Under the pieces are notes generated by a model. That model was given only the letters and a program-made list of their open reading frames with translations, was not told the DNA's origin and made no database searches. A DNA stretch of 34,067 nt from NCBI GenBank assembly GCA_020723345.1, contig DYJA01000051.1:13445-47511 (forward strand), written 5' to 3'. Position numbers and translations under genes: made by a program. Positions 2,075 through 28,400 of the stretch are shown in pieces. Origin of the DNA: Candidatus Aquidulcis sp. Lineage in GTDB: Bacteria > Chloroflexota > Anaerolineae > UBA4142. Within the stretch, counting starts at the first letter, position 1. The number at the start of each line of letters is the position of its first letter.

Positions 2075-3615
2075 GAATTCAAAATTCAAAACCCGTGGTG
2101 AGCGCAGACGAACCATTCGAAATTCAGAATTCGAATTACGAACTTCGAATTTCGAATTCATCCTTGCTCACCAAACAATATCGCACCTTGTCCTACGTTT
2201 CGGGTCCCCTGATTTTTGTCGAGCGCGTCCAGGATGTAGGGTACGGCGAAATCGTCGAGATCACCGGAGCGGACGGCGTCGCGCGACCGGGGCAGGTGCT
2301 GGAGGTGAACCGCGACCGCGCGATCGTCCAAGTGTTCACCGGCACGCGCGGATTGGACATGGACACGACGCGCGTTCACTTTACCGGCGCGGTCGCGCGG
2401 CTGGGCGTCTCAACCGAAATGCTGGGGCGGATGCTCAACGGCGCGGGCGAACCGCTCGACGGCGGTCCGGCAATCGTCCCGGAAACATTTCGTGACATCC
2501 ACGGCGAGCCGATCAATCCGTTCGCGCGCGATCATCCGTCGGAATTCATCCAGACGGGTCTCTCGGCGATTGATGGGTTGAACACACTCGTGCGCGGACA
2601 GAAACTGCCGATCTTTTCCGGTTACGGTTTGCCCGCGAACGAAATCGCCGCGCAAATCGCGACGCAAGCCCAAGTGCTCGGCACCGGCGAGCGCTTCGCC
2701 GTCGTGTTCGCCGCGCTCGGCATCACGCACCGCGAAGCGTCGTTCTTCATCCGCCGCTTCGAAGCGAGCGGCGCGCTGGATCGCACCGTGTTGTTTCTCA
2801 ATCTCGCCGACGACCCGACGATCGAACGCTTGATTACGCCGCGCGCCGCGTTGACGACTGCCGAATATCTCGCGTTCCAACACGATCTGCACGTGCTCGT
2901 CATCATCACGGACATGACGAATTACTGTGAGGCATTGCGCGAAGTTGCGACCGCGCGCGAAGAAGTGCCTGGGCGGCGCGGCTATCCCGGTTATATGTAC
3001 ACCGACCTGGCGACGATTTACGAACGCGCCGGGCGCATCAAGGGCAAGCCCGGTTCGATCACGCAAATCGTGATTCTGAACATGCCGGACGATGACATCA
3101 CGCACCCGATTCCCGATCTCACCGGCTATATCACCGAAGGGCAGATCGTCTTGTCGCGCGAGTTGCATCGCCGCGGCATCTATCCGCCGATTGACGCGCT
3201 GCCGTGTCTGTCGCGCTTGATGAACGCCGGCATCGGCGCGGGCAAAACGCGCGAAGATCATCGCGGCGTCGCCGATCAACTGTACGCGTTTTACGCGCAA
3301 GGGCGCGACCTGCGCCGCCTCGTCGCGATCATCGGCGAAGCCGCGTTGAGCGCGGAGGATCGCAAGTATCTCGCCTTCGCCGACAAGTTCGAACAAGAAT
3401 ATATCGGGCAAGGCAACACGAATCGCGCGATCGCCGAGACCCTGGAACTCGGCTGGCAATTGCTGAGCGAGTTTCCAGCGGCGGAATTGAAGCGCATCAG
3501 GCAAGAGCATATTGAGCGGTATCGAAAGGCGATTGGGCAATCGGGAATCGGGCAATCAGGCAATCGGGAATCGGGCGATCGGGAATCGGGAATCAGGCGA
3601 TCAGTGACCAGTTGA
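2071..3615 (+). CDS. atpB: V/A-type ATPase regulatory subunit B
   Basis: This is the non-catalytic nucleotide-binding subunit of the V1/A1 head, alternating with subunit A in the hexamer. It lacks a Walker A loop and has [16 protein letters not shown] in its place, as expected for subunit [26 protein letters not shown] and the GYITEGQI region are diagnostic. The canonical protein begins near [13 protein letters not shown], about 32 residues after the ATG. The extra N-terminus is encoded by intergenic-type AATTC/GAATT repeats, and the C-terminal tail after RYRKAIGQ comes from another repeat block. ATG 2071 is supported by GGGAG at about 2057-2061 and by the ATGA overlap with subunit A. A start at TTG 2164 would give a normal N-terminus but has no visible ribosome binding site. 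Confidence 0.95.
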
Positions 3616-11642: not shown

Positions 11643-12251
11643 GTGTTGAGCAACTTGATTCGACAACGCGCGCAAGCCGTCTTGAATATCATCGCGCGCG
11701 GACTGGGCGCACTCGGCTTGACGCCGAACGCGCTGACGCTCATCGGCTTTGGATTCATGTGCGTGATCGGCGCGGTGTTGGCGACCGGCAATTTCGCGCT
11801 CGGCGGCGCGCTGATTATCGCGGCAGGGATTTTTGACGCGCTCGACGGCACGCTCGCGCGGCTGACGAATCGCGTCACCAAGTTCGGCGCGTTTCTCGAT
11901 TCAACCACAGATCGATTCGCGGAAGGCGCGATTTTTTTTGGAATGCTGTACGCGTTCATGCAGCGCAACATGACCTTCGTCGCATATCTGATTTTCTTCG
12001 CGCTGCTCGGCTCGCTGATGGTCAGTTACGCGCGGGCGCGCGCGGAAGGCATCGGCGTTCCGTGCAAAGAAGGAATGCTGACGCGTTTTGAACGGATCGC
12101 GCTGATCGTCATCGGCTTGATCGTCACCGCGTTTTTTGGCGACGCGCCGATCCTGATCGTCCTGGGTTTTCTCGCGATTTTTACGAACGTGACAGCCGTT
12201 CAGCGAATGTGGCTGGTCTATCGCGCGACGCGCACTGATGCGCCCAAATGA
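11643..12251 (+). CDS. CDP-alcohol phosphatidyltransferase, PIP-synthase-like
   Basis: This multi-pass membrane enzyme exchanges CMP of CDP-diacylglycerol for an alcohol or alcohol phosphate. The full family signature DX2DGX2ARX8GX3DX3D is present (DALDGTLARLTN...FGAFLDSTTD). The SYARARAEGIGVP segment is the counterpart of SYxKARAEA in phosphatidylinositol-phosphate synthases, a feature I recall for that subfamily and not for glycerol-phosphate enzymes. Several hydrophobic helices follow. The start is GTG 11643 (or TTG 11646), with GAGGA at 11634-11638. Together with the PimA-like and PatA-like genes it suggests inositol-lipid synthesis. PgsA (glycerol-phosphate) activity is the main alternative. 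Confidence 0.85.
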   Translation: MLSNLIRQRAQAVLNIIARGLGALGLTPNALTLIGFGFMCVIGAVLATGNFALGGALIIAAGIFDALDGTLARLTNRVTKFGAFLDSTTDRFAEGAIFFGMLYAFMQRNMTFVAYLIFFALLGSLMVSYARARAEGIGVPCKEGMLTRFERIALIVIGLIVTAFFGDAPILIVLGFLAIFTNVTAVQRMWLVYRATRTDAPK

Positions 12252-13051
12252 CGACGCCTTCCTATCGCTACTCACTCCGCTTGTTAATTCCCTTTCTGCG
12301 CGCGCTCGGCGGCGTACGATCGTCGATGAGCGCGGACTCGGCGCTGCTCTTGCGCGGCGCGCATCCTGCGCCGCGCGTTCTGACTCCCGAAAATATTCCG
12401 GCTGGCTCGCCTTTCATTTTGACCGTCAATCATTACGACCGCCCCGGCTTGGGCGCGTGGTGGGCAGTCGCCGTCATCGCGACGACGATTGCCGCGCGGC
12501 GGACGCGCGAACCGCGCGAAATTCATTTTGCGATGGCGCGCGAATGGTGGTACCCACGCGGCTTTGGCAAACTTGTCAAGCAGCCATTGACGCGCTGGTT
12601 CTTTGGGCAAATCGGCAAAACGTACGGCATGATTTTGTTGCCGCCCGCGCTCGACAGCGGCGAATTTCGCGGACAGGCGACGTTCGCGATCCGCGGCGCG
12701 CTCGCGTTGACGCGCGGCGAAAACCCAGCATTGATCGGGATTGCGCCGGAAGGACAAACCGGCGCGGGGTTTTGCTTGCGCCAACCGCCATCGGGCGCGG
12801 GCTTGTTTCTGCTCTTGCTCACGCACGACAGAATTCCGATCCTGCCTGCCGGAATATTCGAGGATGATGATCGCGCGCTCACCCTCCGCTTTGGCGCGCC
12901 ATTCGATTTGCGCGTGCCGCGCGATCTGCCGCGCGATGAGCGCGACGCGCAAGTCGCGCGCCAAGTGATGATCGCGATCGGCAGATTATTGCCGGAAAAA
13001 ATGTGGGGCGCGTATCGCGCGGAGGTTCGCGCGGCGTTAGAATTGCATTAG
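12248..13051 (+). CDS. PlsC-like 1-acylglycerol-phosphate acyltransferase-family protein
   Basis: This is probably an acyltransferase acting on a lysophospholipid or glycolipid. The substrate-phosphate motif appears as APEGQTG (usual EGTRS) and the ILPAGIF block matches the family's fourth motif. The expected catalytic NHX4D reads NHYDRPG: the His is there but the residue at the catalytic Asp position is Gly, while an Asp sits two residues after the His. Activity is therefore uncertain, or the site is rearranged. The ATG overlaps the previous stop as ATGA. It is the last gene of the operon, and no terminator is visible in the 20 bases before the next promoter, so read-through into the riboswitch unit is possible. 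Confidence 0.75.
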   Translation: MTTPSYRYSLRLLIPFLRALGGVRSSMSADSALLLRGAHPAPRVLTPENIPAGSPFILTVNHYDRPGLGAWWAVAVIATTIAARRTREPREIHFAMAREWWYPRGFGKLVKQPLTRWFFGQIGKTYGMILLPPALDSGEFRGQATFAIRGALALTRGENPALIGIAPEGQTGAGFCLRQPPSGAGLFLLLLTHDRIPILPAGIFEDDDRALTLRFGAPFDLRVPRDLPRDERDAQVARQVMIAIGRLLPEKMWGAYRAEVRAALELH

Positions 13052-13072
13052 AAAAAAAGAACAAAAAATCTA

Positions 13073-13101
13073 TTGACAGCAACTCAAGATCTCCGTAAAC
13101 T
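13073..13101 (+). promoter_or_regulatory. sigma70-type promoter of the orphan riboswitch RNA
   Basis: TTGACA (13073-13078), a 17-base spacer and TAAACT (13096-13101) predict initiation near 13108, just before the first aptamer. Confidence 0.75.
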
Positions 13102-13109
13102 GTAGGTGG

Positions 13110-13200
13110 TCTGAAAAAGCAAACCCGGCGAAAGCCGGGGACGCAAAGCCAACGGGTCTAAAGTCTCGCACGCGGAGACCAAGACGGCTGGGCTACCGCG
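13110..13200 (+). promoter_or_regulatory. cyclic-di-GMP-I (GEMM-I) aptamer 1
   Basis: This unit shows the full class I pattern: GCAAACC, a CGGC-GAAA-GCCG tetraloop stem, GGGACGCAAAGCC, GGGTCTAAAGTC, a second stem (GTCTC with GAGAC) and GGCTGGGCTACCG. By my alignment to the Vibrio Vc2 aptamer, the ligand-contacting positions are retained: G before CAAACC, the middle A of GCAAAGC and the first C of TACCG. The G at the first of these favours c-di-GMP over cGAMP. Confidence 0.88.
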
Positions 13201-13205
13201 AAGGG

Positions 13206-13286
13206 GGAATAAGCAAAGCCAGCAAGCATGGCAGCGCGAAGGTGCCGTAAATCCCAGGAGTCCTGGGAACTAGGTCTACCGATTCC
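13206..13286 (+). promoter_or_regulatory. degenerate middle GEMM-like aptamer
   Basis: This unit lies between the two clear aptamers and keeps their order of elements in altered form: closing stem GGAAT/ATTCC (13206-13210 with 13282-13286), GCAAA, a GCCA/TGGC stem, GCGCGAAGG in place of ACGCAAAGC, a CCCAGGA/TCCTGGG stem and CTACCGA. The GAAA tetraloop is missing, so normal docking may be lost. It could be a decayed aptamer or one with changed ligand preference. Confidence 0.45.
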
Positions 13287-13295
13287 ATCCGACGA

Positions 13296-13388
13296 GAAAA
13301 AGCAAACTCGGCGAAAGCCGGGGGCGCAAAGCTAACGGGTCTAAAATCCGCCGTGGGGATCATGACCGCCAAGCCGCCAAAGAACCAG
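13296..13388 (+). promoter_or_regulatory. cyclic-di-GMP-I (GEMM-I) aptamer 3
   Basis: The first 53 bases are nearly identical to aptamer 1, including the GAAA tetraloop and GCGCAAAGC. The 3' part differs: GACCGCCAAGCCGCC replaces GACGGCTGGGCTACCG. The usual TACCG closing strand is thus not seen. This may be where the aptamer exchanges pairing with the expression platform, since the terminator begins two bases later. Confidence 0.75.
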
Positions 13389-13389
13389 T

Positions 13390-13425
13390 ACCTCCTCCAA
13401 GGAACACTTGGAGGAGGTATTTTTT
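13390..13425 (+). terminator. intrinsic terminator of the riboswitch RNA
   Basis: A perfect 12-bp stem, ACCTCCTCCAAG (13390-13401) with CTTGGAGGAGGT (13407-13418), has a five-base loop. It is followed by A and six T at 13420-13425. On the opposite strand no U-tract follows the stem, so it is directional for the plus strand. Confidence 0.93.
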
Positions 13426-13432
13426 CTGAACC

Positions 13433-14419
13433 TCAAAATAAATACGTCGTGCCGACGAGCGATTGCGAAAACGCGTCGGGTATATGCGCGGCGAATTGCG
13501 CCATCGCCGCGAAACCCGTGCAATGCGTCGGCGCGATCAGTTTCGGCTGGAGGTTTTTGATTTCGGCGATCGTGCGCTGAATTTCGTCATCCTTCGCGCG
13601 TCCCAAGTGAAACCCACCGATGATCGCGTACACTTGATCCACGCCGCTGATTTCGCGCGCGCAATTCACCGTGTTGACGATGCCCGAGTGCGCGCAACCC
13701 GACAAGACGATCAAGCCCTTGTCTTTGACATTGAAGACGATGGCTTGATCGTCTTCGATTTGATCGGGCAGAAATTCACCGCCCGCGCGATAGCGGAGCG
13801 TCGCCGCAACACCAACGGACTCGAAACTACGCCGCGGGATCGCGCCGGTCGTCCAAACGCCCGGCGCAAGTTGATGCGGTTGATCAGTCAAGACGACTTG
13901 CGCGCCGAGCGATTCCCATTCGCCGCGCGGCGGCGGCTGAACGGGTCCATAGCGCGTACCGTCACGCGCAAAATTCCAGCGCTCGCGGAACGCGGCAGGA
14001 TGCGCGACGAGCGAAACGCGCTGACCTTCTGCCCCGCGCGCCATCTCGTCCAGCGTCGCGTTCGCTTCCCATTTGCGCGGCAGCGGCTTGAGATTCATCA
14101 TTTGCAACACGTCGGTCACCGCCGCAGTGTGATCGCCGTGTCCGTGACTGAGCGCGATCAGATCGAACGTCGCGGGATCGATCTTCAGGCGGCGCAGATT
14201 TTCGGGGAGCGCGACGCGCGTGAGTCCGGCGTCCCACAGAATCGTGATCTTGCTCGTTTTCAGATGAACGCGCGCGGCGAATCCGTGTTCGGCAAGCAGT
14301 GGCTCATCTTTGAAACGCTTGACCGTTTCAGTGGACTCGACGAGCAAATCTGTTCGATTGTCGACGAGAACTGTGATCGCGACGTCTGGCGTCTCGCCGA
14401 AATTTTCGATGGCGGGCAT
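13433..14419 (-). CDS. metallo-beta-lactamase-fold hydrolase (COG1237-like)
   Basis: The metal-binding signature SHGHGDH is near residue 90, and SGCAHSGIVNTV, IIGGFHLG and APTHCTG follow in the order seen in the COG1237 family. Members are often annotated as dihydropterin-related phosphate synthases. The real substrate is unknown. ATG 14419 is chosen because AGGAGGT lies 5-6 bases upstream; a longer frame to 14506 overlaps GlpD. The gene starts 8 bases after the GlpD stop and is the last of the minus-strand lipid operon. The plus-strand riboswitch transcript converges on its 3' end, so read-through would be antisense to it. Confidence 0.88.
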   Translation of the reverse strand: MPAIENFGETPDVAITVLVDNRTDLLVESTETVKRFKDEPLLAEHGFAARVHLKTSKITILWDAGLTRVALPENLRRLKIDPATFDLIALSHGHGDHTAAVTDVLQMMNLKPLPRKWEANATLDEMARGAEGQRVSLVAHPAAFRERWNFARDGTRYGPVQPPPRGEWESLGAQVVLTDQPHQLAPGVWTTGAIPRRSFESVGVAATLRYRAGGEFLPDQIEDDQAIVFNVKDKGLIVLSGCAHSGIVNTVNCAREISGVDQVYAIIGGFHLGRAKDDEIQRTIAEIKNLQPKLIAPTHCTGFAAMAQFAAHIPDAFSQSLVGTTYLF

Positions 14420-14427
14420 AGCACCTC

Positions 14428-15987
14428 CTACGCTTTGAACGCGTTCATCGCGTCCACGTTGTCTTGATACGCGCGCAACTCGTTTTCGACGCGCGCCTTG
14501 TCCCACTCTAGGAATTCCGCGAGGTATTGCGCGACACGCGGCGCAGCCGCAACGCCGTTGTCGCGCGCTTCGGTGAACAAATGCAATCGGCGTTCGAGTA
14601 CATCGGTCAGCGTCAGCGCCATTTCATTTTCCAGCGCGTACGGCACTTGCGCCCAAATGTACGGCAAGCCGTCGACGATGCGCTCCGCGAGTTTGGGATC
14701 ACTCTGCGCGAATTGCGCGACGCGCGCCGTCTGCGCTTCCGCGTCTTCGCCGAGCGGCGTGCGCGCGGTCGAGCACGAACGCCGCGCGACGATGTTGAAT
14801 TGTTCGCGCAGTTGTTTCGCGACAACGTCAACCAATTCTTCCGCCATCGAGCGATACGTCGTCAGTTTGCCGCCCGCAATCGTCACCAAGCCGGACGGCG
14901 TCGTCCAAATTTCGTGCTCGCGCGAGGTTTTGCTCGCGCTCTTGCCGCTCTGCGCGACGAGCGGTCGCAAGCCCGCGTACGTGCTGACGACATCGGCTTT
15001 GCTGATCGGCGTCGTCGGGAACGCGTGATTCGCCGCGGCGATGACGTACTCCACGTCGGTTTGGTCCGCATAGACGCGATCATAATCGCCTGCGAAATCG
15101 GTGTCGGTCGTGCCGACGAGCGTGAGTTTTCCCCAGGGCAGCGCGAACATCAAACGCCCATCGGCGACATTGGGAAACGCGACCGCGCTATCGCACCCAA
15201 TTTTTTCGCATGGAACGAGAATGTGAATGCCCTTGGTCGGACGCATCCGCGCGGGCGCGCTGGGTTCGTCCATTTGCGTCAGCGTATCCGTCCACACGCC
15301 CGTCGCGTTCACGACGACGCGCGCGCGAATCTCGATCTTGTCGCCGCGTAGCGCGTCGTGCGCGTTCACGCCGACAACCCGACCGCGCTCTTTGATCAGC
15401 GAATCGACCTGGACGTAATTCGCAATTGCCGCGCCGTGCCGGTGCGCCGCGCGAATCGTTTCGAGAGTGAGTCGCGCGTCGTCCACTTGACCATCGTAAT
15501 AATGCGCGCCGCCGCTGATATTCCGCGTGTCCAAGCCGCGCACGCGCCGCGCGATTTCGCCGGTGGACAACCATGCGTGGTTGCGATAATTACGAAAGAG
15601 CGCGAGCGCGTCGTACATCCACAAACCCAGATTGATCATCCAGCCGCGCAATTTCGAATCGCGATACGCGGGGAAAAGAAAGGGGAGCGGTCGCGCGAGA
15701 CCGGGCGCGATGTTCCACAACACGCGGCGCTCGCGGCTCGCTTCGAACACCAAGCCGAACTCGAACGATTCGAGATAGCGCACGCCGCCGTGGATCAACT
15801 TGGACGATTTCGACGACGTGCCGCTAGCGAAATCGCCTTTGTCGATCAGCGCGGTCTTGAAACCGCGCAGCGCGGCGTCGCGCGCAATTCCCGCGCCGGT
15901 GATTCCGCCGCCGACGACAAGGATGTCGAACGGCGCGCGCGATTGCAAAATCGATTGTCGAGTTCGCACGGAAAATTCGATTGTCAT
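14428..15987 (-). CDS. glpD: aerobic-type glycerol-3-phosphate dehydrogenase
   Basis: This FAD enzyme oxidises sn-glycerol-3-phosphate to DHAP and passes electrons to quinone at the membrane. Visible features are the FAD Rossmann motif VVGGGITGAGIARDAALRG, the DFASGTSSKSSKLIHGGVRYLE block diagnostic of GlpD, PTKGIHILVP, TLVGTTDTDF and TIAGGKLTTYRSMAEELVD. A C-terminal helical domain ends the 519-residue protein. It lies 61 bases downstream of glpC. Having both GlpD and GlpABC in one operon is redundant on its face. They may serve aerobic and anaerobic electron transfer, as the two systems do in enterobacteria. Confidence 0.95.
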   Translation of the reverse strand: MTIEFSVRTRQSILQSRAPFDILVVGGGITGAGIARDAALRGFKTALIDKGDFASGTSSKSSKLIHGGVRYLESFEFGLVFEASRERRVLWNIAPGLARPLPFLFPAYRDSKLRGWMINLGLWMYDALALFRNYRNHAWLSTGEIARRVRGLDTRNISGGAHYYDGQVDDARLTLETIRAAHRHGAAIANYVQVDSLIKERGRVVGVNAHDALRGDKIEIRARVVVNATGVWTDTLTQMDEPSAPARMRPTKGIHILVPCEKIGCDSAVAFPNVADGRLMFALPWGKLTLVGTTDTDFAGDYDRVYADQTDVEYVIAAANHAFPTTPISKADVVSTYAGLRPLVAQSGKSASKTSREHEIWTTPSGLVTIAGGKLTTYRSMAEELVDVVAKQLREQFNIVARRSCSTARTPLGEDAEAQTARVAQFAQSDPKLAERIVDGLPYIWAQVPYALENEMALTLTDVLERRLHLFTEARDNGVAAAPRVAQYLAEFLEWDKARVENELRAYQDNVDAMNAFKA

Positions 15988-16001
15988 CTGTATCGGGCAA
16001 A

Positions 16002-16045
16002 CCAGAAACCCGTTTTCTCGCCTTCGACGGAAAACGGGTTTCTGG
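16002..16045. repeat. perfect 16-bp inverted repeat between glpC and glpD
   Basis: CCAGAAACCCGTTTTC (16002-16017) and GAAAACGGGTTTCTGG (16030-16045) are exactly complementary with a 12-base loop. No run of T follows on the minus strand (GGTTTGCCC), so it may stabilise mRNA or cause partial termination, but is not a clear terminator. AGAAACCCG-type palindromes are a recurring dispersed repeat as far as I recall. Confidence 0.9.
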
Positions 16046-16048
16046 CAT

Positions 16049-17311
16049 TTACTTTTGGATCAATCGCCGTTTGTCCAAATCGTACAAGCCGTACGCTGCC
16101 GCAAAAATCTCGATGGGCGCGCGGCAATCTTTGTGCGTGCCGTGTTCCAATTGCCAGCGACAAATTTCGGAATCGGACGTCGTAAACCGCACGTCATCGC
16201 CTTGCGCGCGGACAAAACGAAACGCCTCTTCGCCGACCTTCATCGCGATGTCGTACTTTTCCGCTTTGTAGCCGTACGTCCCCGCGAGTCCGCAACATTT
16301 CGCGTTTCCTTCGCGCACATCCAACCCAGGAATCAGCGTCATCACATCGAGCGAGGGGCGTCCCATGCGATGCGCGCGCGCCTGACACGAGACATGATAA
16401 GGCACGATCATTTTCAATTCGCGAAAGTTCGTGTCGAGTTCGCCGCGCTCGAGCAGATCGCGCAACCACTCCGACATATCCCACAGCGCGTTTCGCAATC
16501 GCCGCGTCTCGTCGTTTTCGATGTCAAGCATCTCCGATGCTTCTTCGCGCAAAACTAAAACACAGCTGACGCTCGTGCCGACAATCGGCAAACCCTGATC
16601 AGCGTACGGCAGCAGTTTGGCGATGTTGCTGCGATACAATTTTTCAGCCGCGCGAAATTCGCCGTTGTTCAGCATTGGCAGCCCGCAGCAATTCTGCGGC
16701 GGCACGATCACTTGGTATCCAAGATGCTCCAGCACCGCGACTGCCGCTTTGCCGACTTGCGGCTCGTAATAATTCGTCGAGCAGCCGTGAAAGTACACGA
16801 CTTTTTTGTCCGATTTCAAACGCGGCGTGCGGCGAAACCACGCGCCGAAACTTCCTGCGGTGCTCCAGTGCGGAATCGGCGCGTGCCGCGCGACGCCCAT
16901 GATTTTTTCCGCCATGAATCGGCTGAAAGGATTGTGAAATCCCAGGTTCGCGATCTGCGGCGCGATGCTCCCGATCTTGCCGAGTTGTTCGTTGCGTCCA
17001 AAGAACCAGTTGCGTATCGGAATGCCGCGATCCGCGACGATTTGCGCTTTAGCGCGCGCGTTGATCTCCGCGATCTTGACGCCACTCGGACACACCTCAT
17101 TGCAAACGCGACACGCGGAGCAATAGTCCACCGAAATATCGGGTGATTTCAGTTGCCCGCATTCGCGAAATCGCTGCGCTTGCGGTCCGACATATTTGGG
17201 TCCAGGAAACTTATCGGTGACCGCCGCGACGGGACAATAAGTTGTACAGACATTACATTTGATACATTCATCCAGCGTCATACCGACGGAATGCCAGGAG
17301 GCAGTGTGCAT
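16049..17311 (-). CDS. glpC: anaerobic glycerol-3-phosphate dehydrogenase iron-sulfur subunit
   Basis: GlpC carries electrons from GlpAB to the membrane quinone pool. Two ferredoxin-type [4Fe-4S] motifs are near the N-terminus, CIKCNVCTTYCPV and CSACRVCNEVCPSG. Two CCG domains follow, with NCCGLPM and KCCGLAGTYG plus upstream GCSTNYYEPQVG. At 420 residues the length is normal. ATG 17311 is preceded by CTGGAG at a good distance. It lies downstream of glpB with a hairpin in the gap. Confidence 0.95.
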   Translation of the reverse strand: MHTASWHSVGMTLDECIKCNVCTTYCPVAAVTDKFPGPKYVGPQAQRFRECGQLKSPDISVDYCSACRVCNEVCPSGVKIAEINARAKAQIVADRGIPIRNWFFGRNEQLGKIGSIAPQIANLGFHNPFSRFMAEKIMGVARHAPIPHWSTAGSFGAWFRRTPRLKSDKKVVYFHGCSTNYYEPQVGKAAVAVLEHLGYQVIVPPQNCCGLPMLNNGEFRAAEKLYRSNIAKLLPYADQGLPIVGTSVSCVLVLREEASEMLDIENDETRRLRNALWDMSEWLRDLLERGELDTNFRELKMIVPYHVSCQARAHRMGRPSLDVMTLIPGLDVREGNAKCCGLAGTYGYKAEKYDIAMKVGEEAFRFVRAQGDDVRFTTSDSEICRWQLEHGTHKDCRAPIEIFAAAYGLYDLDKRRLIQK

Positions 17312-17323
17312 TATAACTCCAGA

Positions 17324-17376
17324 GTTCAGTGTTCAGTATTCAGTGCTCGCCGACTGAACACTGAACACTGAATACT
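17324..17376. repeat. hairpin repeat between glpB and glpC
   Basis: The word GTTCAGT/ATTCAGT is repeated on the left and its complement ACTGAACACTGAA on the right. The inner arms AGTATTCAGTG (17335-17345) and CACTGAATACT (17366-17376) are perfect. The right arm includes the glpB stop codon. Confidence 0.85.
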
Positions 17377-18631
17377 ATTTCACGGCGCGTCGCGCTGCTG
17401 CGATACCGGTCGCAATCGCTAACCCTTCGAGCGAGCGTTCCAAGATCGGATCGGCGTGCGCGAGCAGATTGCCCGCCGCCCACACGTTGGCGTAGACGCG
17501 CGCGCCTTGCGCGTCAATCGGCTGAAATTCGCGATTGACCGGCACGCCCGCGCGGAAAATTGGATGACCCGCCGGATCGAAAAAGCGCGCGCGGAACCAT
17601 TGTTCGCGCTCGCGCGGCACGGCGAGCGGCAAATCGAACACGCGCTCCCACACCTTGCCGGTGTGATCGCTGTCGATGCCGCCGCCTAAGATTCCACCGG
17701 TCGCCAGCAAGAATTTTTCCGCGCGATGTTTCAACGGGCGACCACTCGCGTCGCTTTCGATCCACAGCACGCGATCCTTTTCCGCGTGAAAGCCAATCAC
17801 ATCCGCGTTGATCTCGACGCGCACGCCAAGTTGGCGCAAGTGATTGCGGAGCGCGTTCGTCAAGCGTACGCCCGGCACGCTCGGCGGCAAGGTGGGAATT
17901 TCAAAGATCGCCGCGCCGGTCTGCGCTTGCAAATCGTCGAGCGCCGCCGCGTGCGCGTCCATCCCCAGGATCGCGGGTATGCCGATCCGTTCGCCCGGCT
18001 GCGCGAGTTGCTTCAACGCGGCGGCAAGTTTCGCGCGCCGCGTCGGATCGTCGAGCGCGGACGCGAGTTGCGCGGTGTTGCTGTCGCGGCGGTCGGTAAT
18101 GAGATCGAGCGGCAGAAACGCCGCGCGCGCGCGCTGCCCTTGCTTGCTCAAGTTTTCCGCAATCAACTCTGGATAAAAATCGCGCATCCCGCGCAAGCCG
18201 ACGATCAGCATCGGCGCAGCGCGGCGCAGATCACCGGCGAGTTGCGCGCGCGGCGCGGGAAATGTCGGTCGTGCCGCGCCGACGGGCGAGGGCAACCACA
18301 GATTATCGCCGGAGTTCGGCGCGCCGGCGTACGGCAAACCGAGTTCGCGCGTCAACGACGCAAAGTTTTCGAGCGCGTCAGAAAGTGTACCATCCAGAAT
18401 CGCGTATGGATGCTGCGGACGCGCGCGCGTCAAATCGTGAAGCGTTTCTAGCGGTCGCATCACAGGTGTTGCGTCGTCTGGATAATAACCCAGGACATCG
18501 ATGCTGCCGGCGTGCCAATGCGTCGCGCCCAAACCTTTCGTCACGATTTTGACTTGCTTGCCTGCGCGCGCGGCGGTGTACGCGGCGATCAAACCGCAGA
18601 GTCCCGCGCCGATTACAATGAGATCACTCAT
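17375..18631 (-). CDS. glpB: anaerobic glycerol-3-phosphate dehydrogenase subunit B
   Basis: GlpB is the FMN/FAD-containing partner of GlpA in the GlpABC complex. The N-terminus has VIGAGLCGLIAAYTAARAGKQVKIVTKGLGATHWHAGSIDVLGY, a GlpB hallmark. The middle region IGIPAILGMD and the C-terminal NVWAAGNLLAHADPILERSLEGLAIATG also fit. The start overlaps the GlpA stop as ATGA, and AAGGAGG precedes it, indicating tight coupling. Length (418 residues) is typical. Confidence 0.94.
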   Translation of the reverse strand: MSDLIVIGAGLCGLIAAYTAARAGKQVKIVTKGLGATHWHAGSIDVLGYYPDDATPVMRPLETLHDLTRARPQHPYAILDGTLSDALENFASLTRELGLPYAGAPNSGDNLWLPSPVGAARPTFPAPRAQLAGDLRRAAPMLIVGLRGMRDFYPELIAENLSKQGQRARAAFLPLDLITDRRDSNTAQLASALDDPTRRAKLAAALKQLAQPGERIGIPAILGMDAHAAALDDLQAQTGAAIFEIPTLPPSVPGVRLTNALRNHLRQLGVRVEINADVIGFHAEKDRVLWIESDASGRPLKHRAEKFLLATGGILGGGIDSDHTGKVWERVFDLPLAVPREREQWFRARFFDPAGHPIFRAGVPVNREFQPIDAQGARVYANVWAAGNLLAHADPILERSLEGLAIATGIAAARRAVK

Positions 18632-20376
18632 GGCGCGCCTCCTTGATCGGCAGTTGCAGAGATGCCGGGACGCGAATAAAAATCGCTCAGCGGACTCGTC
18701 GCGTTTTCGTCAGGCAAATGATCCGCGTTCATCAAGCAGAGATAGATCAGTTCATCCAAGCGTTCTTGCTTCAGTTGGCGTCCCCACAAAATCGGGAGCA
18801 AACCCTTCCAGCGTTCCTGGAGAAAATCGCGCAACAAAAGATTCGGCGATTGGTGATTCGTAATTCGTGATGCGTGTTGCGTGTTGCGTGATTGGGCGTT
18901 GTGCGCCGGTGACTGCATATACGCGACACTCCACTCTTCCAACTGTTCACTGTTCACTGTTAACTGTTCACTGTTCACTTGCATTTCATGGAGAATTCCC
19001 GCCGCGCGGTACGTGCAAAAGCCGCCTTGACACGGTCCCATCCCCAAACGCACATCGCGGCGCAAATCGTCGAGCGTGAGCGTCGGATTGCTGCGCGCCG
19101 CGTTCTCCAACATCGCGCGCGTGACCAATTCACATTCGCAAACGAGTTCGCTTTGCAAATGATTCTCTTCAACTTCATGCAAGCGATGACCGAGCCAGTA
19201 ATGTCCCTGCTCGACGCCGGGCACAACCGTTTGCGCGGTGAGACACGGTTTGCACGCGCCGAGATATTCGCACGCCTTGTCCAGCGTGACCTGCGCCATC
19301 AGCCGGAACGTCGTCCACTTGCCGCCCAGGATTGTCAAGAATCCCGCGACGCCATCGCGCGTTTTGTGATCGAGCAAGGTCAAATCGCGCGTCGCATCGC
19401 GACTCGCGCCGGAGTAATGCTCTTGATAAAGCGGTCGCACGCCCGCCCACGCACGCACGAATCGCGCGCGACTGACGCCGGGGATCAGTTTATCGCCCTC
19501 GCGCAAAAGCAGTTCGACTTCCCAGGGTTCAATCGTCAGATGCTCCGGGTCCTGCACGCGTTCGTCCGTCGTGCCGATCACGGCGACGGTATGAATCGGC
19601 ACGATGATGTCGCCGTCGTCCGGCATTTTGCAGCGATTCAACACCGTGTTGACGACGCGATGATTCACCGCGAGCATCGTCCCTTTGCCGGGGATGACGT
19701 CGACGCGCACGCCCGCGGTCTGCGCGACGACGCCCGACCACGCGCCCGCCGCGTTGATCGTCATGCGCGCGCGAATTTCGACATCCTCGCCGCGCGCCAC
19801 ATCGCGCACGCGCGCGCCGACCACGCGACGATCACCCTCGCCACCTTTCACGATGAGTTGAACAACTTCGTGATAATTCAAAATCTGCGCGCCCGCCTGC
19901 CGCGCGGCTTGCGCGGTCGAGTGCGTCGCTTGAAAACTGTCCGCCGCGCCGTCGGGCACGACGAAAACGCGGCGCGCGTGCGGATTCATTAGCGGCTCAC
20001 GTTTGAGCGCGGCAGCGACGGAAATTTCTTCGCACGGGATTCCGATGTGCGCGCACGCGGCTTTGAATTGATCAGGATAATCGTTGTCGTCTTCCGGCGT
20101 TGCGACGAAAAAGCCGCCTGTATCTTCGATGCAATGCGCGTGTGTTTTGCGGAGAATCCGATTTTCCGCGATGCATTCCGCCGCGCTGTGCGGGTCTTTG
20201 ACGACGTAGCGTCCGCCGCTGTGGAGCAAACCGTGATAGCGCCCGGTCGTGCCGTGCGTCAGATCGCGTTTCTCGACGAGCACGACGCGCAAACCGCGCA
20301 GCGCGGCGTCCCACGCGATCCCTGTTCCCGTCGCGCCGCCGCCGATCACCAGAATTTCAGTTTCGATTTGTTTCAT
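18628..20376 (-). CDS. glpA: anaerobic glycerol-3-phosphate dehydrogenase subunit A
   Basis: GlpA is the catalytic FAD subunit converting glycerol-3-phosphate to DHAP. It has VIGGGATGTGIAWDAALRG, the TTGRYHGLLHSGGRYVV block, ILGGKWTTFRLMAQ and a C-terminal BFD-like [2Fe-2S] region (CECELVTRAM and GMGPCQGGFC). Between the BFD region and the conserved LRDFLQERWKGLLPILWG end lies a linker of about 45 residues. Its DNA (about 18848-18984) consists of repeated words such as ACTGTTCACTG, so an intergenic-type repeat is translated in frame. ATG 20376 overlaps the preceding stop as ATGA; a longer frame to 20391 overlaps it further. Confidence 0.94.
   Translation of the reverse strand: MKQIETEILVIGGGATGTGIAWDAALRGLRVVLVEKRDLTHGTTGRYHGLLHSGGRYVVKDPHSAAECIAENRILRKTHAHCIEDTGGFFVATPEDDNDYPDQFKAACAHIGIPCEEISVAAALKREPLMNPHARRVFVVPDGAADSFQATHSTAQAARQAGAQILNYHEVVQLIVKGGEGDRRVVGARVRDVARGEDVEIRARMTINAAGAWSGVVAQTAGVRVDVIPGKGTMLAVNHRVVNTVLNRCKMPDDGDIIVPIHTVAVIGTTDERVQDPEHLTIEPWEVELLLREGDKLIPGVSRARFVRAWAGVRPLYQEHYSGASRDATRDLTLLDHKTRDGVAGFLTILGGKWTTFRLMAQVTLDKACEYLGACKPCLTAQTVVPGVEQGHYWLGHRLHEVEENHLQSELVCECELVTRAMLENAARSNPTLTLDDLRRDVRLGMGPCQGGFCTYRAAGILHEMQVNSEQLTVNSEQLEEWSVAYMQSPAHNAQSRNTQHASRITNHQSPNLLLRDFLQERWKGLLPILWGRQLKQERLDELIYLCLMNADHLPDENATSPLSDFYSRPGISATADQGGAP
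18848..18984. repeat. short-word repeats inside glpA
   Basis: GTGATTCGTAATTCGTGATGCGTG-like words (18851-18895) and five close copies of ACTGTTCA (about 18940-18980) lie inside the glpA reading frame. The frame stays open through them, and they encode the low-complexity linker with VNSEQLTVNSEQL. Confidence 0.8.
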
Positions 20377-22136
20377 CTTGGCAAATTCCAAAAACGTTCT
20401 TGATATTCAATCGCCGCGTCGACTGAACCGGACGCGGGGCGCGCCGCGAGCCATTTGCCCGGATTCATCACGTCGTGCGGATCGAGCGCGTGCTTCACCG
20501 CGCGCAGCGCGTCCATTCCGACCGCGCTATTTTCGCGATCTATCCACGCGGCGTGTTCGTAGCCGACGCCGTGATGGTGCGATAGCGCGCCGCCGTTCGC
20601 GACGATACATTCCGTCGCCGCGCGTTTGATCGTTTCCCACTGCTCGATCTCTTTGCCGCGCGCCATGCGCGCCAAAAACGTCACGTACAAACTTGCGCCA
20701 TCGCGATAGCAGTGCGAAACGTGCGTCATCACGAGCGCGCGCGCGCCTGTTTGCGCGGCAGCATCGGCAATCGTCACCGCTAATGTCTTGTGTAACTGCT
20801 CCAAGTTGCTCCACGTCGTCGCGGTTTCGAGCGTATCAACCAGAACGCCGTGATCCATCAGCACATCGCGCAAGTACGGCGTCTCGTACCGATCGCGCAG
20901 CCACACTTCGGCGATGCCGCGACCCAGATCGAACGCGCCGTGCGATTTACAAATTGCCTGCCCGGCTTTTGCGCCCGCCGCGTCATCCTCGAAACCGAGA
21001 ATCATCAACGCGCCGCGCTCAAACGAGTAGCCGAATCCGCCCAGCACACGCAAATAGACGCGCGCAACAACCTCCATCCAGGCAGGCGATTCTTCGCGCA
21101 GCGAAAAGAAACTACGCGTCTCGTCCTCGTCGGACAGCCGCACGACTGCCGGGACGATGTCGCTTTGCAGCAGCGCGCGCGTCGCGGCGACGCCATCGGC
21201 GAAACTCTTGAAGAGCAGCGCGCGGTAATCTTTCGTCTTGGGTAACCGACGAATCCGCATCGTCGCGCGCGTGATGACGCCAAGCGCGCCTTCGCTGCCG
21301 ACGAGCAATTGCAAGAGCGACGAACCGGTCGCGGTTGCAGGGACCGCGCGCGTTTCGACGATGCCGCGCGGGGTCGCGACGCGCACGCTTTGCGTCAGCG
21401 CTTCGATTTTGCCGTAACGCGTCGACATCAAGCCCGCGCCGCGCGTCGCGATCCAGCCGCCGAGCGTCGAAAACTCAAACGATTGTGGAAAATGTCCGAG
21501 CGTGAATCCGCGCGCGTTCAACTCGCGTTCGAGATCGGGACCGCGCATGCCCGCTTCAATCGTCGCGGTCTGCGAAACCTCGTCAAGCGCGACGACGCGA
21601 TTGAGCCGCGCGAGATCGAGCGCAATCGTCACGCGGTCTGATGCAGCATCACGAGGGGTAACTGTGTTGGATTCAGAAACATTGATGCCTCGTGATGATG
21701 CATCATCGCTCGCTTCCACGCCGCCGACGACGGACGAGCCGCCGCCGAACGGAATGAGCGCAGCATCGTTCTGCGCGCAAAACGCGATGACGCGCGCGAC
21801 CGCGTCTTCGTTCGCAGGATAAACGACCGCGTCCGGCGGACACGGAATTTCGCCGCGCCGCAAACGAATCAGATCGCGGTACGATCTGCCGTACGCGTGC
21901 AAAACGCGCGCGCGCGTGTCGGTTTTCGTTTCGGGGACGATTTGACGCAGCGCGTCCAATTGCGCGCTGGTCAAGCGCGGCGCGCGCAACCGAATCGAAT
22001 CGAAATCGCACGCGGGCAATGTTTCGTCGCCGCGTAGGTCGAGCGCGGCGCGCAAGAAATTCCACGCGGCGGGACGCTGATCGAGCGAATAGGTTTTGTC
22101 GGCGTAGCCCCAGCCGTACCAGCGAAGGTCTGTCAT
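20373..22136 (-). CDS. FAD-linked oxidase, alkyl-dihydroxyacetonephosphate synthase-like
   Basis: Alkyl-DHAP synthases replace the acyl chain of acyl-DHAP with a fatty alcohol, making the ether bond of ether lipids. The PCMH-type FAD site shows PFGGGSSVVGGVE, EAGMRGPDLERELNARGFTLGHFPQSFEFSTLGGWIATRGAG and VGSEGALGVIT. The C-terminal GGALSHHHGVGYEH supplies the His-rich catalytic motif of AGPS. The N-terminal RWYGWGYADK also fits that family. The protein is 587 residues long. An insertion after GGVEASDD (about 25 residues, DNA 21640-21704) is encoded by an inverted repeat. The stop overlaps glpA, which makes DHAP, so chemistry and context agree. A D-lactate or glycolate oxidase is less likely given the HHH motif. 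Confidence 0.85.
   Translation of the reverse strand: MTDLRWYGWGYADKTYSLDQRPAAWNFLRAALDLRGDETLPACDFDSIRLRAPRLTSAQLDALRQIVPETKTDTRARVLHAYGRSYRDLIRLRRGEIPCPPDAVVYPANEDAVARVIAFCAQNDAALIPFGGGSSVVGGVEASDDASSRGINVSESNTVTPRDAASDRVTIALDLARLNRVVALDEVSQTATIEAGMRGPDLERELNARGFTLGHFPQSFEFSTLGGWIATRGAGLMSTRYGKIEALTQSVRVATPRGIVETRAVPATATGSSLLQLLVGSEGALGVITRATMRIRRLPKTKDYRALLFKSFADGVAATRALLQSDIVPAVVRLSDEDETRSFFSLREESPAWMEVVARVYLRVLGGFGYSFERGALMILGFEDDAAGAKAGQAICKSHGAFDLGRGIAEVWLRDRYETPYLRDVLMDHGVLVDTLETATTWSNLEQLHKTLAVTIADAAAQTGARALVMTHVSHCYRDGASLYVTFLARMARGKEIEQWETIKRAATECIVANGGALSHHHGVGYEHAAWIDRENSAVGMDALRAVKHALDPHDVMNPGKWLAARPASGSVDAAIEYQERFWNLPR
21640..21704. repeat. inverted repeat inserted in the AGPS-like coding sequence
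   Basis: GATGCAGCATCACGAGG (21640-21656) and CCTCGTGATGATGCATC (21688-21704) match at 16 of 17 positions. The insertion keeps the frame and falls between two conserved strands of the FAD domain. Confidence 0.85.
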
Positions 22137-22157
22137 TTTCGATTTAGGGTTTTCAAT

Positions 22158-23621
22158 TTAGGATTTAGGATTTGCCGACGGCGCATCACGTTTTGCGTAC
22201 GGCTCGGCATGAATCACGACGCGCCCCAAGCGCGGAAATTCGCGCCGCAAACGGTTTTCCATTTCCTCGGTTGCGCTGTGAACATCGGCGATCGACAAAT
22301 CGGTATCCATCTGCATGTGAAACGCGAGATACACTTGACCGTCGAGTTGCTGAACGTCGATGTCCTGACACGCGCGGACGTGCGGAATTTCGCCGCAGTA
22401 CGCGCGAATCTGCCCGACGTACTTTGCCGCTTCGCTTGGCGCCAGTTCGTTTCCTTTGATCAGTTCTTCCGCGCGCGGCTCGATGTGAATGTTGATGTCG
22501 GCGATGCGCTGCGAATCTTTGGACGCGCCGAGTTCGGCGTGCAGCCGCGTTTCCAAATCGGTCGCAATCGCGTGCGCCTTGTCGAACGTGATGCTCGGAT
22601 CCACTTCGAGATCGAGATCGATCCACATTCCCTTTTTCGTCAGGTGCGTCGAAATGTTGTGGATCGCAAAATGACCGCGCGCGGCAATGGATTGAATCGT
22701 CTCGAAGATACCTTCGTTCTCCGCGATTGGCACCGGCGTGACGACGACATCGGCATTCGGCGAAACGGAATGTACGGCGCCGCGAATCTGGTGCGTGATT
22801 TCGTGGCTCTCCTCGAACGACAAGTGGCGCGGCACGGCGACGCGCAATTCTACGAAAACCTGACTGCCCGAACCGCGCACACGCGTGCGCTGGACGCGCT
22901 GCACATCGCTAACCCGAGACACCGCCGCCGTGATTTGTTCGGCAAGTCCGTGCGGCGCAGTATCGAGCAGCGCGTCAATCGTCCGCTTACCTAACTGCAC
23001 GCTGACCCAGATCACGATCAGCGCGACGATGAACGCGGCAATCGCGTCCGCGCGGACGAACATTTCTTTTTGTCCGATTTGTTCGCCGAGCCACACAAAC
23101 CCCAAGCCGATCAAGACGACAATCGAACTCCAAATGTCGGTGCTAAAGTGGAGCGCGTCCGCCTCGAGCGCCTGGCTCTTGTACTTTTTCGCCGTACGTC
23201 CAAGCAAGTTCGAATTGAAATAATTGACGACGATAGAAATGCCCATCGTTACAAACGCCCAGATACTCGGATCCACTTCGACGGTCTCGAAGAAGAGCCG
23301 CTGGATCGCTTCGTAAATGATCCAGACACACGTGACGAGCAGCAAAATCGTTTCCGCGAGCGCGCTCAAATTTTCGACTTTGCCATGCCCGTACAAGTGC
23401 GTCTCGTCGGCGGGGCGATCGCTGACGCGCACCGCGAAAAACGTGATCAGCGCGGCAGCCAGATCCAAACCCGAATGTGCGGCTTCGGCGAGAATGCCGA
23501 GACTGCCCGTCCAAATGCCGATCCCAATTTTCAGCGCGGTGAGAAAGATCGCCGACACGACTGACCACGAGGCGGCAAAACCCTTTTCGTGCGCTTGTTG
23601 TTCGGAGATTGTCATCGTCAT
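22158..23621 (-). CDS. CDF-family cation efflux protein with extended C-terminus
   Basis: Cation diffusion facilitators export Zn2+, Fe2+ or Mn2+ in exchange for protons. About six membrane segments lie in residues 15-205, with the transport-site pairs HSGLD (helix 2) and HFSTD (helix 5). The cytosolic part is far longer than the usual about 90 residues: roughly 280 residues that look like three successive ferredoxin-fold dimer domains. Each has an HxI or HxE ending, as in DVVVTPVP, DINIHIEPRAEEL and RVVIHAEPYA. ATG 23621 follows the patatin stop directly (TGA then ATG). A second in-frame ATG lies at 23615. The metal is not deducible. Confidence 0.9.
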   Translation of the reverse strand: MTMTISEQQAHEKGFAASWSVVSAIFLTALKIGIGIWTGSLGILAEAAHSGLDLAAALITFFAVRVSDRPADETHLYGHGKVENLSALAETILLLVTCVWIIYEAIQRLFFETVEVDPSIWAFVTMGISIVVNYFNSNLLGRTAKKYKSQALEADALHFSTDIWSSIVVLIGLGFVWLGEQIGQKEMFVRADAIAAFIVALIVIWVSVQLGKRTIDALLDTAPHGLAEQITAAVSRVSDVQRVQRTRVRGSGSQVFVELRVAVPRHLSFEESHEITHQIRGAVHSVSPNADVVVTPVPIAENEGIFETIQSIAARGHFAIHNISTHLTKKGMWIDLDLEVDPSITFDKAHAIATDLETRLHAELGASKDSQRIADINIHIEPRAEELIKGNELAPSEAAKYVGQIRAYCGEIPHVRACQDIDVQQLDGQVYLAFHMQMDTDLSIADVHSATEEMENRLRREFPRLGRVVIHAEPYAKRDAPSANPKS

Positions 23622-24512
23622 TCAGTTTCCGTTTTTGCGGCGCATCCGACGCCAGGTTTTCTGAATCCGCTCGCGAAAAGTCGGATGCAAAACCTTTGCG
23701 AGTTGCGGCAGCGCGTCGCGCATTGCCGTTTCGCCTGCCGCGACCGAAAGGTCGATCAAATCGAAATCGAGCAAGCCGATCTTTTGTACGTCAGGATAGA
23801 TCGTCAGATCGGGCGGCGCGTCCATCGCCTTGAGCGCGCGCGCGGGCTTGGTCATAATGCCAATCGTGCGCGCGGCGACGCGAAAGATTTTTTGCTGCGT
23901 CGCCGTAAAAATAAAGCGAAACAAGAGCGCTTCGGGACGGTGCAGCGCCGGATCCGCGGTAAAGGTCGGCTCGTCCGCGGCGAGATCGACCGCCAGCACG
24001 AAATCCGCGCCCATGCGCCACGCGACGTCGAACGGGACGGGGTTGAGCAAGCCGCCGTCGAGATAAGCGTGTCCGCCGACTTGCGCTGGCGCAAGCACAA
24101 TCGGAAACGCGCAACTCGCGCCGACCGCATCGGCGACGCCGCCGGAATCGAATACGACTTCTTGCTGCGAATCCATGTCGGTCGCCACGGCAGCGAACTT
24201 GAGCGGCAAGTTTTCGATGCGCGCGCCCGCGCCGATCTCGGATTCAATCACGCGGCGAAAACCGTCGGTGCTGAAAAAGCCCATCCCGGTCTTGTCGCGC
24301 GCGAGCCAGTCGCGCAAACTTAGGCGGCGCATCAATCGTTCGATGTCGTCCGGTGATTTGCCCGCCGCGTACAGCGCGCCGATGATCGCGCCCGCGCTGG
24401 TGCCGGTCACGAGGCTGATCGGCGCGCGCGCGGCGTCCAGCGCGCGCAATACGCCGATGTGCGCCAGCCCTTTCGCGCCGCCGCCGCCTAACGCGATTCC
24501 CAGTTTCATCAT
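23622..24512 (-). CDS. patatin-like phospholipase
   Basis: This is a serine lipid acyl hydrolase with a Ser-Asp dyad. The oxyanion loop GGGGAKGLAHIGVL opens the protein, followed by the nucleophile elbow GTSAG and the catalytic Asp in LDGGLLNPVP. At 296 residues with no signal peptide it resembles the RssA-like cytoplasmic group. GGAG at 24521-24518 is well placed for ATG 24512 or ATG 24509; a longer open frame upstream runs through the terminator hairpin and is rejected. It is the first gene of the operon and lies just behind an attenuator-like terminator. Confidence 0.9.
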   Translation of the reverse strand: MMKLGIALGGGGAKGLAHIGVLRALDAARAPISLVTGTSAGAIIGALYAAGKSPDDIERLMRRLSLRDWLARDKTGMGFFSTDGFRRVIESEIGAGARIENLPLKFAAVATDMDSQQEVVFDSGGVADAVGASCAFPIVLAPAQVGGHAYLDGGLLNPVPFDVAWRMGADFVLAVDLAADEPTFTADPALHRPEALLFRFIFTATQQKIFRVAARTIGIMTKPARALKAMDAPPDLTIYPDVQKIGLLDFDLIDLSVAAGETAMRDALPQLAKVLHPTFRERIQKTWRRMRRKNGN

Positions 24513-25404: not shown

Positions 25405-28400
25405 ATGAAAAAGCGAATCGCTGAACGTAAAGCCGTTAAAGATGAGTTGAGGAAACAGCAGTCCACTCTGAGTAGTATCATTAATGGCATTGATGCGCTC
25501 ATCTTTTCACTAGATCGACAATATCGGTACACCAGTTTCAACCAGGAACACGCCACCGTGATGCGCGCGCTCTACGGCGCAGAAATCGAACTGGGTCACA
25601 GTCTGCTCGACTATATGACCGTGGCAGAAGATCGTACCATCGCAAAAGGCAACCTCGACCGCGCGCTAGCGGGCGAACAGTTAGTGGAAGAAGGGTATTC
25701 CGGTGAAGAACTACGCTCGCGACGCTACTTTCGAGTATCCCATAGCCCCATCAAGAGTGAACAAGGAGACGTCATCGGCGTGGCGGTACTCGCGCAGGAC
25801 TTGACCGAGCGCAAGCAGGCAGAGGAGACACTGCGCCACCTGAATCGCGAATTGCGCGCCATCAGCATCTGCAACCAAACGCTGTTGCGCGCGGTCGACG
25901 AGCAGATGCTGCTCGAAGACATTTGCCGGATCATTTGCGACGAAGCCGGTTACCGCATGGCGTGGGTCGGCTATCTGGAACACGACGACGCCAAGACCGT
26001 GCGCCCGGTCGCCTGGGCGGGCTTTGAGGACGGGTACCTCGCAACGGTAAACATCACCTGGGCTGACGTGGAACGCGGGCAAGGGACCACCGGAACCGCG
26101 CTTCGAAATGGCAAACTCGTCTATACCCAGGATTTCGCGACGGACCCGCGATTCGCTCCCTGGCGCGCCGACGCCTTGCAGCGCGGTTACCGGTGCAACA
26201 TCGCGCTGCCGCTCAAAGACGAAAACGCCCACACCTTCGGCGCGCTCACGATCTATTCCGCGCAGCCAAATGCTTTCACCCCGGACGAAATCCGGCTCTT
26301 GGAGGAATTGGCAGGCGATTTGGCGTTCGGCGTCACCACACTCCGCACGCGCGCCGAACACAAGCGGGCAGAAGCGTCGTTGTGGGAAACATCGCAAATG
26401 CTGAAGCTGGTCCTGGACAACATGCCCGCGTTTGTATTCTGGAAAGATCGCAACAGTGTCTATCTGGGCTGCAACCGTCTCTTTGCCGCAAATGCAGGAT
26501 TTAGCTCCCCACAGGAAATCGTCGGCTTGACCGATCTGGATTTGCCGTGGAAAGACGCCGAGGCAGAGAGCTACCGCGCCGACGACCGGCGGGTCATGGG
26601 AACCGGTCTTCCGAAACTCAACTACGAAGAGACACAGTTGACAGCCGATGGCCGCGTCACTGCCGTGCGAACAAGCAAAGTCCCCCTGCGGAATCCCGCC
26701 GGAGACGTCATCGGCGTGCTAGGCACATTTGAAGACATCTCCGCGCGCAAGCAGGCGGAAATGCAACTCCGCGCCAGCGAGCAACTCTTTCGCGCCCTGG
26801 TGGAGAACTCGCCCGACTCTATCGCCCGCTATGACCGGCAATTTCGTCGCATCTACGTCAACCCTGCCATTCAGAAACTGTTCCCAAGTCCAGCGGCAAG
26901 TGTGCTCGGCAAGACGCCCGCCGATCAATCGCCGCTTTACGCTCCGCAGATCTACATCGATCACCTGCGGCAGGCCATCGAGGCCGCCGCCGAAAGCACA
27001 TTGGAAATACCATACCGCACTGCTCAGGGTGAGATGCGCTGGGGCCAAATCCGGTTTGTTCCGGAATTCGATCCGGACGGCAAGGTGGCTTCTGTCCTTG
27101 CCATCGGGCGCGATATTCACGAAATCAAGGAAAATGAGCGACGCTTTCGGATGCTGGCAGAAAACTTTCCCGACTTTGTCGTTCGATTCGACCGCGACGG
27201 TCGATTCACCTACGTCAACCCTGCCGTCGAAAAAGCATTCGGTCTCACAGCCGAAACAATGATCGGCAAAACGTTGCAGGAATTACCGCCGCGCAGCAAG
27301 CCGGAACAGAACGATGCGCTCTTGGCGCTGATCCGCCGCGCGGTTGACGAGGGCGTCGCCAACGAATCCGAAGCATACTGGGAAATCGAGACAGGCGCGC
27401 GTATCTTTGAAACTCGCCATGTGCCGGAGAAAGACGCAACCGGAAACGTCGTCAGCGTGCTCAGCATTACCCGCGACATCACGGACCGCAAACGCGCGGA
27501 AGAAGCTCTGCGAGACAGCGAGCGCAGACTTGCCGAAGCCCAACGCATCGCGCATGTCGGTTACTGGGAACGGAACTTTGACGTGTGCCGCATCATTCTC
27601 TCCGATGAAGCCTGCCGCATTTTTGGTCTATCGCCGCAGGAGGTCCCCCTGAACCTGGAGCAGTGGCACCAACGTTGGCTGGAATTGATCCATCCGGAAG
27701 ATCGGCCGCGATTGGTTCAGGCAGTCGTTGATGCGTTGGGGGACGGTCCGCCGTACAATGTGGAATATCGCATTGTCAAGCCCGGCGGCGAGGTGCGGTT
27801 CATTCATAGTGAAGCGAGCGTCAGGCGGGATGAATCGGGTCGCCCGCGCTATATGCTGGGCATGATGCAAGACATCACCGAGCGCAAGCGCGCAGAGGAG
27901 GCGCTGCGCGAATCAGAAGATCTGCTCCGGGTCACGCTGGAAAACATCTCCGATCCTGTGTTCATCACCGATGATGCGGGGGCGTTCACCTTCATCTGCC
28001 CCAACGCTCCGCATATCCTTGGTTATACACTGGAAGAATTCGAGGCAATGGGGAACGTCTCCAAACTTTTCGGGGCAACGCTCTTTTCGCCGGAGGAATT
28101 GGATCGCCGGGGAAAAATCGAAAATATCGAGTGTAAAATTGCTAGAAAGGATGGCGATCGACGCGATTTTCTCGTAACGGTCAAGCGCGTAGCCATTCAC
28201 AAGGGCACTGTTCTCTACACTTGTCATGACATCACCGACCGCAAACGCGCGGAGGAAGCATTGCGCGAAAGCGAAGACCGCTATCGGATGCTCTTTAACG
28301 TCATGGACGAAGGCGTCGCCATCAATGAAATTGCCCGGGATGAAAAAGGCGATGTGGTGGATTATACAATCTTGGAAGTCAATCCCGCGTTCACGAAAAA

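Follow-up and report, generated by a model that had tools for sequence, protein, structure and literature searches.

Within a stretch of 34,067 nucleotides from a Candidatus Aquidulcis sp. genome of the class Anaerolineae, phylum Chloroflexota (referred to here as the window), class I cyclic-dinucleotide riboswitch aptamers (GEMM-I) lie in a row between a promoter and a terminator, and the question is what such an array does when no gene follows it on its own strand. A sequence-only reading had proposed an orphan transcript with two clear class I c-di-GMP aptamers and a third degenerate one, acting as a small RNA or a ligand sink or surviving as a relic. We followed up these proposals by computational analysis of the window and of related genomes, many of which are metagenome-assembled genomes; genes were called simply, from coding statistics, and names of proteins neighboring the arrays were read from their sequences.

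Two intact aptamers and a degenerate domain in one array

The features of the unit and its immediate neighbors, in window coordinates, are listed below.

12248..13051, plus strand: upstream gene, 267 amino acids, no Pfam match
13058..13063, plus strand: AGAACA element, 14 nt before ATTG
13073..13101, plus strand: sigma-70-type promoter, TTGACA-N17-TAAACT
13108..13200, plus strand: GEMM-I aptamer 1 (RF01051, 70.6 bits)
13202..13283, plus strand: probable degenerate GEMM-I-like middle domain (9.8 bits with a clade model; minimum free energy [MFE] topology; Rfam negative)
13291..13381, plus strand: GEMM-I aptamer 2, the third domain (RF01051, 62.7 bits)
13387..13425, plus strand: intrinsic terminator, 15-bp stem at 13387-13421 followed by a U-run
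13433..14419, minus strand: convergent gene for a metallo-beta-lactamase-fold protein, the first of an eight-gene minus-strand run

The two class I aptamers were borne out by their Rfam matches, both of which exceed the RF01051 gathering score of 35 bits, while the middle domain falls below it. With the clade model, which was built from 41 aptamers of relatives, the outer aptamers score 68 to 69 bits and lie within the range of gene-linked GEMM-I aptamers. They are 77% identical to each other, and double changes in P3 (GUCU/AGAC versus AUCC/GGAU) preserve the pairing, which argues for structural selection after duplication. The array spans approximately 283 nt, with steps of 94 and 89 nt between domains.

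The third aptamer is only probable. The middle domain had no Rfam match, even with lax settings on 107 bases alone. The clade model gave 9.8 bits, with an E value of 0.006 in 651 nt that becomes 0.32 over the whole window, where five chance matches score better, and a model of the middle domains of arrays elsewhere (R3) recognized it no better (5.0 bits). The unconstrained MFE structure is nevertheless a GEMM-I-like three-way junction, in which P1 is followed by GC-AAA-P2-AGC-GC and then by a P3 (UCCCAGG/CCUGGGA) with an internal loop; the fold energy is ordinary (z = -1.3). We regard it as a probable, although not proven, decayed GEMM-I domain. Its P2 has lost the tetraloop, and because the P2 loop is not of the GNRA type, ligand binding by this domain is doubtful.

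A promoter of the GEMM-I type and an apparently independent terminator

The packing between a promoter (13073-13101) and a terminator (15-bp stem at 13387-13421) proved correct, as did the limits of 13073-13425 for the unit, and transcription is expected to start near 13108. The spacing of the upstream AGAACA element matches that of other GEMM-I promoters ([AG]G[TA]AC-N9-ATTG-N20-TANNNT) and of triple arrays in Anaerolineales (AGAAC[AG]). The former pattern was found at 14 of 48 GEMM-I promoters of the order versus 0 of 308 other sites in these loci that share the -35/-10 pattern, a comparison that carries a mild bias from a scan favoring matches with the element. AGAACA or AGAACG also occurs at an identical or almost identical offset in the 14 array loci displayed, and the AGAAC form of the window promoter is the array form. 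The element supports the promoter as real and ties the unit to GEMM-I loci. Promoters with the upstream element are seen, for example, at L082, L105, L119, L124, and 13058-13101 of the window, and an activator or sigma factor common to GEMM-controlled genes and RNAs is possible.

The whole transcript folds better than its shuffled versions (z = -5.95). The 5' arm of the terminator reads CCUCCUCC; none of the aptamer core pairs involves the stem, which is present in the MFE structure of the full-length RNA, and so no switching partner for it is apparent among the aptamers in these folds. The same arm invites the reading of a trans-acting small RNA, in which CCUCCUCC, an anti-Shine-Dalgarno sequence, would be exposed by a ligand-dependent refold and repress mRNAs. 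Candidates for riboswitch-gated noncoding RNAs with a C-rich loop do exist in the same order. The motif is, however, locked in the 15-bp stem. The Anaerolineales arrays do not retain it, their terminators having GGGATGAC or CCTGCCG instead, and we consider this reading very improbable.

No target gene follows the array

The claims that no plus-strand gene follows the array and that its neighbor is convergent both held. No plus-strand gene was called between 13427 and the next one at 25405 (approximately 12 kb), and the convergent gene ends 8 nt past the terminator U-run. The minus-strand run (13433-24512) encodes the metallo-hydrolase, then a FAD-dependent glycerol-3-phosphate-dehydrogenase-like protein and Fe-S proteins. 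On the other side, the upstream gene product looks like a 1-acyl-glycerol-3-phosphate-acyltransferase-type protein, judging from its sequence and a CDP-alcohol phosphatidyltransferase neighbor. The array is the sole gene-less GEMM-I locus in its genome; the other loci have a plus-strand gene 67 to 148 nt downstream (241 nt where the locus is the first of two in tandem). Unlike a GEMM-I riboswitch in a 5' leader, the window unit thus has a convergent neighbor and no plus-strand gene for 12 kb.

Target genes directly downstream of the unit in relatives were sought and not found. In a genome of the same genus, a NUDIX-type gene directly follows the upstream gene and the junction is without GEMM, and no GEMM was detected around either neighboring gene in the syntenic regions of relatives. 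The junction carrying the array is therefore specific to this genome. This speaks for a relic, a former leader with tandem riboswitches that lost its target gene, or had it displaced, when a rearrangement brought in the minus-strand operon, and so does the decay of the middle domain. For the unit as a whole, however, a relic is quite improbable: the promoter and terminator are intact, the outer aptamers retain their scores and the P3 pairing through two-sided changes, and gene-less triple arrays are conserved elsewhere.

The convergent gene raises another alternative, since 13433..14419 would be antisense to any read-through transcript of the unit. An antisense-acting riboswitch would have its ligand control termination at 13387-13421, with the read-through RNA opposing the metallo-hydrolase gene and the glycerol-3-phosphate-dehydrogenase-like operon. 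The distance of 8 nt suits this arrangement, and of all riboswitch families the c-di-GMP class shows the strongest enrichment in antisense orientation (152 versus 2,554 sense; PMC9943018). What looks like one strand of the outer helix, immediately 3' of aptamer 2, also overlaps the 5' arm of the terminator; the window outer helix is an energy-based duplex of -10.9 kcal/mol without covariation support. Like the published antisense-acting riboswitches (PMC9943018), the unit faces a convergent gene within 500 nt; unlike them, it shows no ligand-dependent read-through in its sequence, and its neighbors are not conserved. The position of the terminator stem outside the aptamer cores and its presence in the full-length fold count against such control, as do the unrelated downstream genes, in either orientation, of triple arrays elsewhere. 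The hydrolase gene is also missing from most relatives, and the pairing is thus unlikely to be old. Overall, we consider antisense control improbable.

The family of the window genome has a further gene-less GEMM at L123 (G004:C277, approximately 3001-3100), where a GEMM-I match truncated in its 3' half runs into a terminator and a convergent gene lies 30 nt beyond.

Packed triple arrays recur in other Anaerolineae

The proposal of an orphan stand-alone transcript is supported by comparison, as the gene-less architecture recurs in many Anaerolineae. Class-wide searches found packed triple GEMM-I arrays with a promoter and a single terminator, and of the 400 genomes searched in the order of G046, 53 matched an array query, mostly near full length and in some cases partially. 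Thirteen arrays located just before ruvB measure 267 to 289 nt, with steps of approximately 80 to 95 nt and without an internal terminator. RNAalifold applied to these 13 arrays returned 65 pairs, 29 of them with double compensatory changes, comprising one helix that closes all three aptamers together with P2 and P3 of each. Seven array loci were checked with Rfam, and each had two or three RF01051 matches, the middle aptamer usually being unlisted; the middle aptamer of the Anaerolineales arrays is divergent or has A at the position equivalent to Vc2 position 20 (A20).

The commonest neighbor of the arrays is ruvB, and TATAAT was found 9 to 10 nt before its ATG in the first eight array loci checked (8/8). 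In a wider set of ruvB genes, TATAAT precedes the ATG wherever the start is readable, whether the array is present or absent. Since ruvB thus retains a promoter of its own in either case, the array is not a ruvB leader. Other downstream neighbors include genes for a lysozyme-like protein and a response regulator, and the upstream neighbors include those for an HlyD-like protein, IMP dehydrogenase (IMPDH), a histidine kinase, and a CarD-like protein, among others. At least four of the arrays face a convergent gene 41 to 197 nt away, as in the window. The promoter, three domains, and terminator remain constant while the neighbors change, which indicates that the unit behaves as an RNA gene rather than a leader.

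The window unit likewise has three head-to-tail GEMM-I domains, the third of them only probable, with one terminator after them and none internal. It resembles the Anaerolineales arrays in architecture, length, promoter type, and A20, and differs in belonging to another order, in its flanking genes, and in a far more decayed middle domain. Full-length similarity to the window array was absent among 60 relatives and 396 genomes of the class, in which only aptamer-sized DNA matches appeared, and an exact degenerate pattern of the window aptamers had no match in a collection of genome contigs. A search with a loose pattern of two cores gave mainly noise, judging from its control, and only its GEMM-like rows were followed. 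Because architecture, length, promoter type, and A20 are shared without full-length sequence, the window copy belongs only probably to the same kind.

Two loci among these searches stand apart. At L383 (3128-3239), a TPP riboswitch follows a triple GEMM-I array on its strand at a distance of approximately 180 nt. At L284 (G366:C169), a packed triple array on the minus strand near a contig end has 85-nt steps and G20 in all domains; it is not beside ruvB, and the end of the contig truncates it downstream.

Pocket residues and the ligand

That the aptamers are of class I held, but c-di-GMP as their ligand is not assured, because all three window domains carry an A directly before the first base pair of P2 (13118, 13212, and 13301), the equivalent of Vc2 position 20. 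This position corresponds to A14 in the numbering of the c-AMP-GMP riboswitch (PMC6274999). A20 goes with c-AMP-GMP binding and a change from A to G shifts selectivity to c-di-GMP (PMC6456294, PMC9481103), although the base is a selectivity factor and not a hard filter (PMC9262584). At the outer aptamers (13118 and 13301), A20 is accompanied by the equivalents of A47 and C92, while the middle domain combines A20 with a G at the position 47 equivalent.

A20 is found in 5 of 64 GEMM-I matches of the order and in 22 of the 39 aptamers of the 13 arrays, including every middle aptamer (13/13). Fisher's test for the enrichment in arrays gave P = 9e-8, a value that overstates independence as the arrays are related. 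The window aptamers share the A at Vc2 position 20 with the Geobacter GEMM-Ib (c-AMP-GMP) riboswitches (PMC6456294, PMC9481103). Unlike those gene leaders, the window unit is without a gene, and no Hypr (GHxxGS) GGDEF was recognized in its genome, where the 13 readable GGDEF motifs are all GHxxGD and three are unreadable. A source of c-AMP-GMP is thus not evident. The ligand may be c-AMP-GMP, c-di-GMP, or both.

Known systems and other GEMM-I arrangements

The closest published case is merRNA of Bdellovibrio bacteriovorus, a gene-less c-di-GMP-riboswitch RNA proposed as a ligand reservoir (PMC3627812) and the sole gene-less c-di-GMP RNA found in the open-access literature searched. It is 445 nt long, with one c-di-GMP riboswitch reported, and its authors found it only in Bdellovibrio (PMC3627812). 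Like merRNA, the window unit has its own promoter and terminator and no conserved open reading frame downstream; unlike merRNA, it has three packed domains and A20 aptamers and is recurrent in Anaerolineae. Three class I aptamers in a row are also known from Bc3-5 of Bacillus thuringiensis, where the 5' untranslated region of a gene contains three complete riboswitches that each have a separate terminator platform (PMC4759541), and from a survey of c-di-GMP-I tandems that counted 347 doublets and 12 triplets (PMC9481103). In contrast to those of Bc3-5, the window aptamers are in contact or almost so, have a single terminator in common, and are not followed by a gene.

Other arrangements of GEMM-I were encountered in the same searches. 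Tandems of riboswitch, terminator, and riboswitch before a gene (L169, L171 to L174, L176, L282, and L283), in many cases a gene whose product looks secreted, have a spacing of 165 to 185 nt, near the distance between the two good window aptamers. A GEMM-I aptamer and terminator also lie directly 5' of a small two-hairpin ncRNA at L105, L112, L118, L119 (sister family), L124, and L082, the last two from the same family as the window genome. This ncRNA has a C6 loop and a covarying terminator stem with the loop GGCCGGG, and double changes occur in 11 of 23 pairs. Six of its eight strong loci in the class have GEMM, and at L248 and L249 the promoter runs straight into the ncRNA without GEMM. It is a candidate for a noncoding RNA gated by a c-di-GMP riboswitch. 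The C-loop ncRNA was rejected as the basis of the window unit, its model having no match in the window genome.

A probable receptor RNA as the gene product

Collectively, we favor with fair confidence the explanation that 13108-13427 is a stand-alone noncoding RNA gene whose output is the cyclic-dinucleotide receptor RNA itself. A sigma-70 promoter of the GEMM-I-locus type would drive an RNA of approximately 318 nt. This RNA would consist of three head-to-tail class I cyclic-dinucleotide aptamer domains, the outer two intact and the middle one degenerate, and would end at a terminator independent of the aptamers. As a receptor, it would bind c-di-GMP and/or c-AMP-GMP. The RNA rather than a downstream mRNA would be the output, titrating or buffering its ligand or making ligand-dependent contacts in trans, two roles that cannot be told apart from sequence.

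More tentatively, and with somewhat less than even confidence, we suggest that Anaerolineae possess a widespread and previously undescribed class of stand-alone RNAs, in which three fused GEMM-I domains are closed by an outer helix and usually mix A20 (c-AMP-GMP-type) and G20 (c-di-GMP-type) pockets as a two-messenger receptor or buffer. The window unit would then be a divergent, all-A20 member from another order.

The standing assumption is that riboswitch aptamers belong to gene leaders, and here a gene-less triple-aptamer RNA covaries across dozens of genomes. The idea that an aptamer RNA is itself the output, as a sensor or buffer of second messengers, becomes testable by comparison and in culturable Anaerolineae, and an RNA that combines A20 with G20 pockets would be a natural two-messenger molecule.
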